Positions 18,434 through 28,158 of a stretch of 64,000 bases of DNA are shown piece by piece (the first letter of the stretch is position 1; each line of letters opens with the position of its first letter). Origin of the DNA: Brachynemurus nebulosus (Eukaryota > Arthropoda > Insecta > Neuroptera > Myrmeleontidae). The position numbers were made by a program, and so were the translations under genes. Below the pieces are notes generated by a model, which was not told the origin of the DNA, made no database searches, and worked only from the letters and a program-made list of their open reading frames with translations. The DNA lies in NCBI GenBank assembly GCA_035578155.1, contig JAPWDM010000044.1:694501-758500 (forward strand), written 5' to 3'.

Positions 18434-18469
18434 AGCAGTAGATAGGCTATAAAAGCACGAGCACACCTA

Positions 18470-19400
18470 GTGTCTCAAAAGTTTGGGTACATGCTGATGC
18501 AACATGTACCCACTACATCCTGACGCAAGATGTACCCAAATGTTTGAGACACTCTGTACCTTGTGTATGGATTGATCTTTGACCCAGCACGTACCAAGTA
18601 CATGTATCAAAATTTGTTGTTGACATTTAACCCCAACACTCGCTCATACTGCTGGCCTTGAAATTCCTAAGAGGTGAGTCATCGCCAGCAACCGAATTAA
18701 TTTATGTTAACCCATTATGCGTCATCACAATTTACTTATAACAATTTCATTTTGTGTTAACCCATTACCAGCCAAACCTAACGCATGCGCAGACTGAATT
18801 TAAGTACACGACGCATGCGCAGACTGAATTTTAGGTTACAATTTGATAGATGGGGTACACTACCGCGTCAAAAATGTAGGGTTACCCTAACTCGTGGGTG
18901 GCTCCAAACTTTTGACACGGCAGTGTACTTAAATTTTTGGTACACTGCCGTGTCAAAAGTGTGGACCCCCCCTGGCCAAAAAGGTATCCTATCACTTTTT
19001 GAAGCGTACTGTACGTGCAAACCTTGGCCCCAACCCGCGCTTGCCTTAATTGCGTCATCTTAAACGAACTATCACGTCAAAAAATGTGGGGAATACCCTA
19101 ACTCGGGGGTGGCCCCAAATTTTTGACGCCGTACTGTACTTAAATTTTTGGTACACTACCGTGTCAAAAGTGTGGACCCCACTGACCAAAAAGGTATCCG
19201 ATCACTTGTTGAAGCGCACTGTACGTGCAAACCTTAACCCCAACACGCGCTTGTCTTAATTGCGTCATTTTAAACGAAAGGTACATTACCAAGTCAAAAA
19301 TGTTGGGAATACCCTAACCCACGGGGTGGCCGCTAAATTTTGCGGGGCACTGTACCAAGCGCTAGATTTTAAAACCAGACTCCGGGGTCCAGATTTCTGA
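18470..19400. repeat. Terminal hairpin and tandem repeats of the left arm
   Basis: At 18470-18551, GTGTCTCAAAAGTTTGGGTAC is answered by an inverted GTACCCAAATGTTTGAGACAC. A 29-bp unit with ACGCATGCGCAGACTGAATT occurs twice at 18780-18832. From 18850, two ~210-bp units repeat GTCAAAAwTGT, TAACTCGkGGGTGGC, GTACACTrCCGTGTCAAAAG and CACTTKTTGAAGCGyACTGT. Related words form a separate repeat at 37248-37550. Short frames here (18785-19063, 19050-19259) are repeat translations. Confidence 0.75.
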
Positions 19401-20580
19401 CCGCTACTGTACTGCCGGAAATCGAGTGTTAACTGTACCTTATGGGGATTTTTGGTATATTTAACCTTGGAAAATTCCAGGAATTTTTATCAGTTTTAAA
19501 ACAAACAAACAACTAATAATTAAATGTTTATTTTAGCTGAATTATGATCATATGACTCATATATGGAGTTTTTTTGGTATAAGAAAGATGACGTCATGGA
19601 ATATTAATGAGTTAAAAAATTGTTTAGTAAAAAATATCACCCATTGTAGGCCTCAAGCAAGAAATTATTTATATCAGTTTTAATACTTTAACATTTAACC
19701 TACAGTGACCAATTTTTTAGTTAACTAACAAAAATTCTTGAAATTTTAACAAGTTACAAAAAATATTACTTCTTATGGTGCACAACACTTTTGAATTTGA
19801 CTGTAGCACAAAACTGTTTCTATATCAAACGAAAATTATCTGAAATAATTCAGTATGTACATATGTATAGACTCTATATATTAAAAATATTTTATGTATA
19901 CACTCTGTATATTGAGAATAAGAAAGAAAATTTGTATATAATTTTAATTTTTATGAATGCTAGTAAACGAATTGTATAGCCATTTATGAATAAGTATTAA
20001 ATCTAATTATAAAATAATTTATAAATATTGCAAAAAATTTGTTTAATCAGCAAAATCAATGTATATCATTTTAATACTGATACATATTTATATTAGGGTA
20101 TAATAGTATTGTATTTAACATTTTTAAACAGAATAAAAGTTCAATTTTTGGTTTTAAATTACTATAAGTTAAACACGTCGCTTAATATAAAAATGATAAC
20201 AGCATTGAGTCTTACTAAATTTTTAAGTCTGTAAAATCAAAATTTTTATAGCTAGAACATTTTGAATTTGATACTTTATCAATCATTAACATATATACAA
20301 TATCATGTATATATAACTGGTGTATATTTAGTATTTTTAATAAATATTTTAGTATACAGGGTGTATCATGAAATATGCTTTTCAATTAGAATAATAAATT
20401 TCATAAGATTTTTGTTAATACTCTTATTGGTTAACGAAAGAAACTTTTTGCTGTAAAAAAATAGGGGAATTCAGGGTAATAATTAAATAAAACGCACATA
20501 TTTTTCTTTTTTTTAAAATTTTATTTATAGAATATGTATACAAAAAATTAAATTGCTTAAATGTATATATTACTAAAAAT
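19401..20580. other. AT-rich arm spacer (left)
   Basis: No credible gene. It contains a consensus CRE palindrome, TGACGTCA, near 19588 (mirrored near 26982) and the word TATACAGGGTGTATCATGAA near 20352. Frames of 62-64 codons are AT-driven. Confidence 0.5.
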
Positions 20581-21047
20581 CTATTTATTTTCCATATAAA
20601 ATTTTTTTAAAAGAATACAGTTTTCTAATGAGCAAATTTTATCTGAATGGATCATACAGCGTCTTGAATAATATTCATCTCGCAGATTGGAAATCTTCGG
20701 TACATCAAATATTTCTTCCAAATTCAAAATCCACGGCTGGTTTTCGGTACCATCAAACAAATTTGAAATCCATTTCTTCTTTTCACCGCCCTTGAAACTT
20801 CTTTAATATAGGTTTCAATATGGAATGAAGTTTTTTGTACGGAATAAATCCATATGACCAAGGTATCCCATGCCAATTTCGGCAAAGCCAACGTGCAGCA
20901 ACCCGTTCATATTTCTTCGGCAACTCGTTGAAATCAAACGGTGCGTCGAATATAAGATGTAATATTTCATCCGAATTTTCCGCAACGATACCAACTTCTT
21001 TAAAATAAAAAAGCTCCTTGATAGCCTTGTATGTCAAGAAACGCCAT
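20581..21047 (-). pseudogene. Broken gene of a mobile-element protein family (left-arm copy)
   Basis: The minus strand opens with ATG at 21047 in one frame (MAFLDIQGYQ, stop after 15 codons). It continues +1 through LFYFKEVGIV, WLCRNWHGIPWSYGFIPY and ILKPILKKFQ, and shifts +1 again into GGEKKKWISNL, then C-x2-H...C-x4-C (CMIHSDKICSLENC), stopping at 20581. D-x-Q-G near the N-terminus, W-H-G-x-x-W and a C/H-rich tail resemble, from memory, an uncharacterised arthropod mobile-element family, perhaps with a nuclease-like fold. The first shift lies at a T6 run. Two shifts make it a pseudogene or a consensus error. AATAAA lies just downstream. Confidence 0.55.
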
Positions 21048-25528: not shown

Positions 25529-25995
25529 ATGGCGTTTCTTGACATACAAGGCTATCAAGGAGCTTTTTTATTTTAAAGAAGTTGGTATCGTTGCGGAAAA
25601 TTCGGATGAAATATTACATCTTATATTCGACGCACCGTTTGATTTCAACGAGTTGCCGAAGAAATATGAACGGGTTGCTGCACGTTGGCTTTGCCGAAAT
25701 TGGCATGGGATACCTTGGTCATATGGATTTATTCCGTACAAAAAACTTCATTCCATATTGAAACCTATATTAAAGAAGTTTCAAGGGCGGTGAAAAGAAG
25801 AAATGGATTTCAAATTTGTTTGATGGTACCGAAAACCAGCCGTGGATTTTGAATTTGGAAGAAATATTTGATGTACCGAAGATTTCCAATCTGCGAGATG
25901 AATATTATTCAAGACGCTGTATGATCCATTCAGATAAAATTTGCTCATTAGAAAACTGTATTCTTTTAAAAAAATTTTATATGGAAAATAAATAG
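25529..25995 (+). pseudogene. Broken gene of a mobile-element protein family (right-arm copy)
   Basis: Same as 20581-21047. ATG at 25529 is preceded by ATAAAAA. Frame 1 ends TAA at 25574 just after the T6 run at 25564-25569. Frame 2 is open to TGA at 25791. Frame 3 carries the KKKWISNLFDGTENQPW segment and Cys/His tail to TAG at 25993. Both shifts are +1 and identical in the two arms, so they either predate arm homogenisation or are shared consensus errors. AATAAA follows at about 26050. Confidence 0.55.
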
Positions 25996-27175
25996 ATTTT
26001 TAGTAATATATACATTTAAGCAATTTAATTTTTTGTATACATATTCTATAAATAAAATTTTAAAAAAAAGAAAAATATGTGCGTTTTATTTAATTATTAC
26101 CCTGAATTCCCCTATTTTTTTACAGCAAAAAGTTTCTTTCGTTAACCAATAAGAGTATTAACAAAAATCTTATGAAATTTATTATTCTAATTGAAAAGCA
26201 TATTTCATGATACACCCTGTATACTAAAATATTTATTAAAAATACTAAATATACACCAGTTATATATACATGATATTGTATATATGTTAATGATTGATAA
26301 AGTATCAAATTCAAAATGTTCTAGCTATAAAAATTTTGATTTTACAGACTTAAAAATTTAGTAAGACTCAATGCTGTTATCATTTTTATATTAAGCGACG
26401 TGTTTAACTTATAGTAATTTAAAACCAAAAATTGAACTTTTATTCTGTTTAAAAATGTTAAATACAATACTATTATACCCTAATATAAATATGTATCAGT
26501 ATTAAAATGATATACATTGATTTTGCTGATTAAACAAATTTTTTGCAATATTTATAAATTATTTTATAATTAGATTTAATACTTATTCATAAATGGCTAT
26601 ACAATTCGTTTACTAGCATTCATAAAAATTAAAATTATATACAAATTTTCTTTCTTATTCTCAATATACAGAGTGTATACATAAAATATTTTTAATATAT
26701 AGAGTCTATACATATGTACATACTGAATTATTTCAGATAATTTTCGTTTGATATAGAAACAGTTTTGTGCTACAGTCAAATTCAAAAGTGTTGTGCACCA
26801 TAAGAAGTAATATTTTTTGTAACTTGTTAAAATTTCAAGAATTTTTGTTAGTTAACTAAAAAATTGGTCACTGTAGGTTAAATGTTAAAGTATTAAAACT
26901 GATATAAATAATTTCTTGCTTGAGGCCTACAATGGGTGATATTTTTTACTAAACAATTTTTTAACTCATTAATATTCCATGACGTCATCTTTCTTATACC
27001 AAAAAAACTCCATATATGAGTCATATGATCATAATTCAGCTAAAATAAACATTTAATTATTAGTTGTTTGTTTGTTTTAAAACTGATAAAAATTCCTGGA
27101 ATTTTCCAAGGTTAAATATACCAAAAATCCCCATAAGGTACAGTTAACACTCGATTTCCGGCAGTACAGTAGCGG
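25996..27175. other. AT-rich arm spacer (right)
   Basis: Mirror of 19401-20580, with the TGACGTCA palindrome near 26982 and no gene. Confidence 0.5.
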
Positions 27176-28106
27176 TCAGAAATCTGGACCCCGGAGTCTG
27201 GTTTTAAAATCTAGCGCTTGGTACAGTGCCCCGCAAAATTTAGCGGCCACCCCGTGGGTTAGGGTATTCCCAACATTTTTGACTTGGTAATGTACCTTTC
27301 GTTTAAAATGACGCAATTAAGACAAGCGCGTGTTGGGGTTAAGGTTTGCACGTACAGTGCGCTTCAACAAGTGATCGGATACCTTTTTGGTCAGTGGGGT
27401 CCACACTTTTGACACGGTAGTGTACCAAAAATTTAAGTACAGTACGGCGTCAAAAATTTGGGGCCACCCCCGAGTTAGGGTATTCCCCACATTTTTTGAC
27501 GTGATAGTTCGTTTAAGATGACGCAATTAAGGCAAGCGCGGGTTGGGGCCAAGGTTTGCACGTACAGTACGCTTCAAAAAGTGATAGGATACCTTTTTGG
27601 CCAGGGGGGGTCCACACTTTTGACACGGCAGTGTACCAAAAATTTAAGTACACTGCCGTGTCAAAAGTTTGGAGCCACCCACGAGTTAGGGTAACCCTAC
27701 ATTTTTGACGCGGTAGTGTACCCCATCTATCAAATTGTAACCTAAAATTCAGTCTGCGCATGCGTCGTGTACTTAAATTCAGTCTGCGCATGCGTTAGGT
27801 TTGGCTGGTAATGGGTTAACACAAAATGAAATTGTTATAAGTAAATTGTGATGACGCATAATGGGTTAACATAAATTAATTCGGTTGCTGGCGATGACTC
27901 ACCTCTTAGGAATTTCAAGGCCAGCAGTATGAGCGAGTGTTGGGGTTAAATGTCAACAACAAATTTTGATACATGTACTTGGTACGTGCTGGGTCAAAGA
28001 TCAATCCATACACAAGGTACAGAGTGTCTCAAACATTTGGGTACATCTTGCGTCAGGATGTAGTGGGTACATGTTGCATCAGCATGTACCCAAACTTTTG
28101 AGACAC
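27176..28106. repeat. Terminal hairpin and tandem repeats of the right arm
   Basis: Mirror of 18470-19400: two ~210-bp units with ACAGTrCGCTTCAAmAAGTG and CTTTTGACACGGyAGTGTAC, the doubled GCATGCGT motif, and the outermost GTGTCTCAAA hairpin. Confidence 0.75.
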
Positions 28107-28158
28107 TAGGTGTGCTCGTGCTCTTATAGCCTATCTACTTATAGCCCTTACTACTATA

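Follow-up and report, generated by a model that had tools for sequence, protein, structure and literature searches.

A gene-bearing palindrome in the genome of the antlion Brachynemurus nebulosus looks like a copy-back satellite of Polinton/Maverick transposons

Which known class of mobile DNA, if any, can account for a palindrome that carries its own genes? The locus that raises this question is a 9,703-bp mobile element at positions 18437-28139 of the window (the whole 64,000-nucleotide stretch of contig JAPWDM010000044.1 analysed here), inserted within a 6-bp target duplication, TATAGC. It gives the impression of a parasite that exploits a virus-like transposon, namely a mirrored, reduced Polinton end without DNA polymerase, and we consider it very probable that it is a copy-back (snap-back), defective-interfering (DI)-like, non-autonomous Polinton/Maverick derivative, i.e. 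a satellite.

The features of the element are compiled in Table 1. The limits of the element are fixed by the AGTAGATAGG tips together with the target-site duplication (TSD), and the tip motif, AGTAG, falls short of a full (AGT)2. The two arms are 3,650 bp each, pair around an axis sum of 46576 without a single indel, and differ at 8 positions, 1 in the tip (18453) and 7 in the tandem array (21991-22080). The axis and the indel-free arms given in the original prediction were thereby confirmed and the limits refined. Imperfect inverted similarity extends further inward across the arrays, as far as 22231 and 24347, and the terminal repeat of the left arm contains a tandem repeat of about 210 bp.

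Table 1. Features of the palindromic element in window coordinates
Feature	Position	Strand	Remarks
Left target-site duplication TATAGC	18431..18436	.	
Left arm	18437..22086	+	tip AGTAGATAGGC, terminal repeat, AT-rich stretch, arm frames and the greater part of the 21-bp array
Arm reading frame, 96 codons, coding doubtful	20786..21073	-	mirror 25503-25790 +
Arm reading frame, 58 codons from ATG, coding doubtful	21210..21383	-	mirror 25193-25366 +
21-bp tandem array, left	21574..22231	+	ends near TATATATA stretch ahead of the zinc-finger gene
C2H2 zinc-finger gene, 326 aa	22315..23295	+	C-terminal half similar to gene of full Polintons
CxxC gene, 200 aa from first ATG used	23580..24182	-	upstream end cut relative to sibling copies
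Copy-back junction	24204..24205	.	CxxC gene fused to inverted array edge
21-bp tandem array, right (inverted copy)	24237..25002	-	
Right arm	24490..28139	-	left arm inverted
Right target-site duplication TATAGC	28140..28145	.	

For each of the two core ORFs, its own frame has the best score of all six. With a mean coding score of 0.018, the CxxC gene falls in the upper range of 53 non-coding ORFs, which reach 0.07, but its 200 codons are more than any of the 15 best-scoring null ORFs listed has (140 or fewer), and the gene recurs in 150 scored genomic copies out of 952 candidates. By hand count, the open frames of these 150 matches fall into classes of 218 aa (17 matches), 296 aa (43), 287 aa (2) and 264 aa (1), with 241 aa in the window and 255 aa in the remaining 86, obtained by subtraction. 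In the arms, the 96-codon ORF is weak, as another frame scores better than its own, and the 58-codon ORF is best in its own frame with a score inside the null range. Because these ORFs are weak and the matching arm stretch of a sibling element (L065/L066, described below) is likewise split into different frames, we count two genes and one doubtful arm gene. Of the four gene types originally proposed, the two core genes therefore stood, while the arm genes have weak coding scores and amount to at most one doubtful gene.

The absence of transposase, integrase and polymerase had also been claimed, and it holds for the material searched: polymerase B and integrase are absent from 18437-28139 in the ORF lists and in the Pfam search of four frames, and no transposase ORF is listed there. 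Capsid proteins and a packaging ATPase, which other elements of the genome have, do not occur among the listed ORFs of the same interval. In lacking polymerase B, integrase, capsid and ATPase the window element differs from an autonomous Polinton/Maverick, as it does in being palindromic with one end doubled.

Homology searches with the proteins gave few matches. The CxxC protein had 11 candidates in the protein database, none at E 0.001, the 96-codon arm frame had zero candidates, and the zinc-finger protein had 2 matches among 1505 candidates, covering the 8% of the query that is the zinc finger. No relatives of three element proteins, CxxC included, were found in viral contigs. Modelling the CxxC protein from its single sequence gave a structure of low quality (mean pLDDT 44), and the fold search with this poor model returned 0 matches at E 0.001 and 24 at E <=10. 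Each scan with a CxxC pattern gave one match, and neither match was significantly similar to the CxxC protein. The PDB matches of the arm frame, largely designed repeat proteins among which no stretch passed by itself, were judged spurious.

The relatives that place the element were found in the same genome. The sibling L065/L066 (10,685 bp, TSD GATCAA, tips AGTAGATAAGCTA) contains terminal repeats, a polymerase-B-type ORF, a full CxxC gene, the zinc-finger gene, the array and the arm, and carries the arm-bearing end of the window element once; its TIRs are 834 bp long, as against arms of 3.65 kb in the window element. Its 1172-aa ORF is not assigned to a DNA polymerase family by hmmscan even at E 10 and has no PDB chain match; it is called polymerase-B-type because of the PF03175 scores of its relatives: it shares 95-98% identity with the genomic frame L032 (E 1.9e-27) and 38% with two frames scoring 1.3e-31 and 3.2e-31. 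A further relative, L064/L068, which was read from one end only, possesses an ATPase and an rve integrase, and is 96.1% identical to L065 over 5,506 columns. It matches the sibling on the side with polymerase and CxxC and in the type of terminal repeat, its terminal repeat is 89.5% identical to that of the window element, and in L064 the CxxC gene adjoins the counterpart of the sibling polymerase-type ORF (1173 aa) and the rve integrase. The Polintons with capsid genes that were read (L042-L049) have a different tip, AGTAGGTATTAGGG, placed from alignment breaks.

Both core genes can thus be assigned to Polinton/Maverick on sequence grounds. A TSD of 6 bp is the Polinton length (PMC10045372, PMC8097293), and (AG)3 or (AGT)2 are reported as end motifs of vertebrate Mavericks (PMC8097293). 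The window element has the 6-bp TSD, inverted terminal repeats with AGT-type tips, and CxxC and zinc-finger genes that also occur in elements of this genome bearing polymerase B and integrase, and for these reasons we place it among Polintons. One of the readings originally offered, a Polinton-satellite-like element, was essentially right; the statement that it fits no known superfamily is not supported.

Further copies with the same arms, suggested as a check at the outset, are present: at least 17 plus/minus arm pairs occur at separate loci of this genome among 40 scored matches, and in all 10 palindromic copies with both ends readable a 6-bp TSD adjoins AGTAGA tips. The junction breakpoint in the CxxC gene lies at the identical place in 18/18 junction-type copies read (a lower bound, from the 150 scored CxxC matches among 952 candidates), with identical bases in 15 and nearby substitutions in 3, and is missing from all 7 other copies read. 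Since the breakpoint position is the same in every junction-type copy read, we conclude that one founder spread.

We suggest that a Polinton-type element would have been copied off the chromosome, presumably by protein-primed replication, with a strand running inward from one end through the terminal repeat, arm, 21-bp array, zinc-finger gene and CxxC gene. A template switch inside the CxxC gene may then have led to the same end being copied back outward, so that a single 3.65-kb end would form both termini and no polymerase gene would be left. The founder, with its tips and terminal repeats retained as cis signals, would have spread through the polymerase and integrase of Polintons in the same genome, enzymes that presumably must be supplied in trans, and the arms would stay alike as one end templates the other in replication. 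For Polintons in general, protein-primed extrachromosomal replication is deduced from gene content, and palindromic defective adenovirus DNAs exist. The window element resembles copy-back/DI genomes in that one end is inverted and duplicated around a short unique loop, in that it derives from a helper with deletion and loss of the polymerase, and in that it has multiplied, hence presumably with the aid of a helper. It differs from them in being DNA and a chromosomal family with TSDs, and any interference is putative.

Arm comparisons bear on this mechanism. Arm identity within a copy is 98.0-100% in nine of ten copies, although some 150-column bins drop to 91-95%, and between copies its median is 93.5% (180 comparisons). 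In the first 150 columns, i.e. the tips, the median identity is 51% between copies and 100% within a copy. Tips are alike at both ends in nine of ten copies, as if one end had templated the other before integration. The exception, C106_21.9, has unlike tips and an arm identity of only 80%, and in copy C58_34.4 the arms are not sisters. Alternatively, the palindrome could have arisen by chromosomal inverted duplication, its arms being homogenised by gene conversion in the chromosome, in the manner of sex-chromosome palindromes, with ordinary transposition later. Gene conversion by itself is able to equalise arms such as the near-identical ones of these nine copies, yet the tips are strongly divergent among copies while matching at both ends within a perfect TSD; and in C106_21.9 a single perfect TSD encloses two complete tips that differ, so the tip change preceded integration in that copy. 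We regard this explanation as improbable.

Less probable still is a long-armed cut-and-paste transposon of Foldback/Galileo type that carries Polinton genes fortuitously and is mobilised by an unrelated transposase whose target duplications are 6 bp long. In Galileo the inverted arms are very long, contain tandem repeats and are alike within a copy, and the TSD is 7 bp; the window element resembles it in its arms, but has Polinton-type genes and tips, no transposase among its listed ORFs, and a TSD of 6 bp. Such arms are typical of Foldback/Galileo-like elements (Galileo: PMC4168063), whereas the arms, tip type and core are those of polymerase-B- and integrase-bearing elements in the same genome, and the TSD has the Polinton length.

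The original proposals of an independent virus, or of an integrated segment from a multipartite virus, are highly unlikely. Bidnavirus genomes come in two segments that have inverted terminal repeats, and they encode NS3, a four-cysteine protein (PMC4061559, PMC6521256); the CxxC protein of the window element is at most a putative homologue of NS3. The window element resembles bidnaviruses/densoviruses in the gene for a small four-cysteine protein, the linear genome and the inverted terminal repeats; PMC4061559 also links NS3-bearing genomes to a Polinton-type polymerase. However, the scans of viral contigs gave no relative of the three proteins tried and the protein database none of the CxxC protein at E 0.001, no virus segment was found, and the genes are located within Polinton-type elements of the same genome. 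A polydnavirus segment and a host-gene palindrome were considered as ideas only and dropped. Finally, there is practically no chance that the assembly turned one sequence into a false palindrome: only the arm identity itself speaks for it, whereas ten copies differ in their flanks and in their TSDs, which are perfect on either side of each copy, and the arm sequences vary from copy to copy.

The palindrome family appears to record Polinton extrachromosomal replication in chromosomes, in the form of a putative single-founder template-switch product, within-copy arm likeness, between-copy tip divergence and one copy with unlike tips. It may serve as a polymerase-less reporter for which Polinton proteins work in trans, and lets one ask if defective genomes limit virus-like transposons. 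More speculatively, and with less than even chances, there could be a three-tier chain of germline parasites: complete Polinton viruses, a dependent element with polymerase only, and the polymerase-less palindromic satellite, which would be replicated and packaged by Polinton proteins and compete with its helper as a heritable defective-interfering genome damping Polinton activity.

The flanks of the window element, (AT)n plus a 26-bp unit at 18311-18433 and 28155-28290, form a direct and not an inverted repeat. They had hinted at a target duplication of at least 100 bp, which was abandoned once the 6-bp TSD emerged, and the repeat is probably a duplication that the target site already had.

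The predicted geometry of a near-perfect palindrome around an asymmetric two-gene core was confirmed: the arms differ at 8 positions without a single indel, with seven of the mismatches inside the 21-bp tandem array and one in the tip. The core between them is about 2.4 kb long, and each of its two ORFs scores highest in its own frame among the six. The zinc-finger ORF has a coding score of 0.216, higher than all 53 non-coding ORFs (maximum 0.07). The CxxC ORF, for which a Pfam search at E 1 returned no family, scores 0.018, within the range of this background, and the arm ORFs do not exceed it either (n = 53). 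Each array ends with a TATATATA stretch facing a core gene and has the arm frame on its opposite side, and by this anatomy it looks like a two-way enhancer/promoter block.

Arms and core ORFs of the palindromic element in the window
Feature	Position	Strand	Remarks
Left arm	18437-22086		3,650 bp
Right arm	24490-28139		3,650 bp, inverted relative to the left arm
C2H2 zinc-finger ORF	22315-23295	+	PF00096, E 4.1e-6
CxxC ORF	23580-24182	-	core

Further copies with the same arms, which the original prediction had proposed to look for, were found in the same genome. A 601-bp arm segment was searched against the 960-Mb genome (138 contigs, the window being C90:694501-758500), and the best 40 of 1330 first-look candidates were scored; 34 of these 40 combine into 17 plus/minus pairs, in which the two starts are separated by 4.3-5.9 kb, and 6 are single (hand count). 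The outer ends were compared in 10 other copies and the window copy, and both ends were readable in 10 of the 11; the left end of the palindromic copy C84_55.5 is N and thus falls outside the comparison. All ten readable copies have tips starting with AGTAGA and an exact 6-bp direct repeat outside them (GTCCCT, GACACT, AATGTC, GTAGCC, AATGTT, GTTCTT, TTTGTA, TATAGC, TGCGTT and AATATT), and the window element is therefore delimited as 18437-28139 with the target site duplication (TSD) TATAGC. Its surroundings are (AT)n-rich and contain a direct duplication, which is taken to predate the insertion. Seven copies differ from the window at 8-17 of about 1,900 core positions. Two palindromic copies, C1:8275244-8280189 and C74:29462926-29467871 (L058 and L059), have an equal arm spacing of 4,945 bp and an equal count of core differences, 14 of 1,903, and are probably the result of one recent transposition.

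The inner junction reveals how these copies are related. The CxxC gene extends further upstream in the sibling, a Polinton-type element (L065/L066), and in the window it breaks off at 24204/24205, beyond which it meets the inverted array edge. Each of the 18 junction-type copies read has its breakpoint at this position, with identical junction bases in 15 and neighbouring substitutions in 3, and the gene is uninterrupted in the seven copies read from other frame classes (L060, L063, L064, L065, L079, L080 and L081). From this common breakpoint it follows that a single event formed the palindrome, whose product then multiplied. The duplication may have handed the cut CxxC gene another copy of the putative enhancer/promoter array.

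Polymerase-B frames (PF03175) abound in the genome: scoring 75 of 1288 candidates gave at least 193 matches, the best at E 1.3e-31 and the longest open frame 1427 aa, and none was found in 14 control genomes. Six polymerase loci were taken with their flanks and two of them put through Pfam; a double-jelly-roll capsid frame (E 2.8e-118 in one, 1.8e-116 in the other) and an rve integrase occur in both, and one also matches PLA2-like and A32-type ATPase families. The CxxC protein has 150 scored matches (of 952 candidates), all 98-100% identical across the whole query; 43 of the 150 belong to the frame class of L065/L066 (hand count; L065/L066 alone was read through both ends). This sibling (C1:12631530-12642214) is 10,685 bp long, with 834-bp terminal inverted repeats (99.4%), the TSD GATCAA, the tip AGTAGATAAGCTA and a 296-aa CxxC frame. 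Its 1172-aa ORF is followed by the CxxC gene in its longer form, then by the zinc-finger gene and the 21-bp array, and after these by the arm stretch with the terminal repeat next to it. Because no further non-array ORF of at least 120 aa is listed, it is read as having no integrase, ATPase or capsid genes, and looks like a polymerase-only dependent Polinton.

Neither a polymerase family by hmmscan nor a matching PDB chain was found for the 1172-aa ORF. We call it polymerase-B type by sequence identity, since it is 97.8% and 94.6% identical over two stretches to polymerase-B frame L032 (PF03175, E 1.9e-27), while frames L030 and L031 (E 1.3e-31 and 3.2e-31) share 38% identity with the ORF across 1,172 columns. 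The window is collinear with the right end of L065, with an identity of 94.8% from CxxC through to the array (2,436 columns), 88.3% in the array and arm (1,765 columns) and 84.7% in the outer arm (590 columns). Another relative, L064/L068, has genes for an A32-type ATPase and an rve plus chromodomain integrase, together with a partner gene, CxxC (255-aa-frame type) and a 1173-aa ORF. Across 5,506 columns L064/L068 and L065 are 96.1% identical, and the terminal repeat of L064/L068, read at one end, is 89.5% identical to that of the window over 697 columns. Pairwise BLASTP with composition adjustment off shows a resemblance between the C-terminal half of the zinc-finger protein and the partner gene that full Polintons carry (E 2.4e-4 for L042, 0.007 for L064). 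Elsewhere in the window, 37245-37555 is about 80% identical to the outer repeat of the arm and falls within or next to a Gypsy-like ORF (37436-38200); it is apparently a displaced bit of the terminal repeat of a Polinton.

Outer arms are 98.0-100% identical between left and right in nine of ten copies (80.0% in the palindromic copy C106_21.9), and 76.3-98.5% between copies (median 93.5%, 180 comparisons). By position, with C106_21.9 left out of the within-copy figures, columns 1-150 have a within-copy median of 100% (minimum 93.3%) versus 51% between copies, and the following 150 columns 100% (minimum 91.4%) versus 86.5%. The between-copy median is 93-97% from the third 150-column bin to about column 1200 and 99-100% past it. 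In the tree, left and right arms are sisters in eight of ten copies, the exceptions being C106_21.9 and another palindromic copy, C58_34.4. C106_21.9 has two unlike complete tips within a single perfect TSD, and similarity of its right arm ends after about 800 bp. Protein-primed replication can yield panhandle or snap-back intermediates. The simplest account of the arm likeness is that tips would be swapped extrachromosomally with other Polinton-type DNA, after which one end would template the other in the manner of such intermediates. A passage of PMC8097293 describes how adenoviruses jump back at repeats of the end motif, which it also expects of Mavericks.

Among eight palindromic copies, variable sites fall in silent-only and amino-acid-changing codons as 2 and 15 for the zinc-finger gene and 4 and 7 for the CxxC gene; for CxxC in four copies of the other type they are 7 and 4. 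These small numbers show no visible constraint on the satellite core genes. Pooled over 13 CxxC sequences pN/pS is 0.29, and over 9 zinc-finger sequences it is 1.82, both sets counting the window twice (also as L054). The CxxC frame is stop-free in 14 of 18 junction-type copies and the zinc-finger frame is without an early stop in 7 of 8, for which youth accounts as well as selection.

Copy-back defective genomes are well known in RNA viruses, and palindromic defective DNAs are known from adenovirus. Among the open-licence papers listed there was no pertinent report on the latter, no related report combining Polintons with defective interfering (judged by title and start of abstract), and no pertinent title on non-autonomous, palindromic or satellite Polintons. 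Passages of PMC8097293 and PMC10045372 give a 6-bp TSD and AG/AGT end motifs as Polinton marks, and the window element shares the 6-bp TSD and an AGT-type tip. Tetrahymena Tlr was formerly proposed as a non-autonomous Polinton derivative, which, according to part of PMC4028283, later analysis disputed. We call the window element a non-autonomous Polinton in form and a copy-back defective genome in build. The CxxC protein adjoins a PolB-type ORF in two elements (L064 and L065). In the window and in these two, it brings to mind the four-cysteine NS3 of densoviruses and bidnaviruses, with which it may be homologous. Homology, if real, would bear on the origin of NS3 in bidnaviruses, for which part of PMC4061559 provides background.

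The window contains other repeats. A direct repeat of 1,372 bp (55327-56698 and 59242-60613, 99.8% identical) lies within Gypsy-like retroelement ORFs and is either a recent duplication or nested copies. Three more inverted repeats of 0.5-0.7 kb, with 89-94% identity, are located at 1-525/767-1287, 2405-3129/3586-4316 and 51749-52265/52402-52907.
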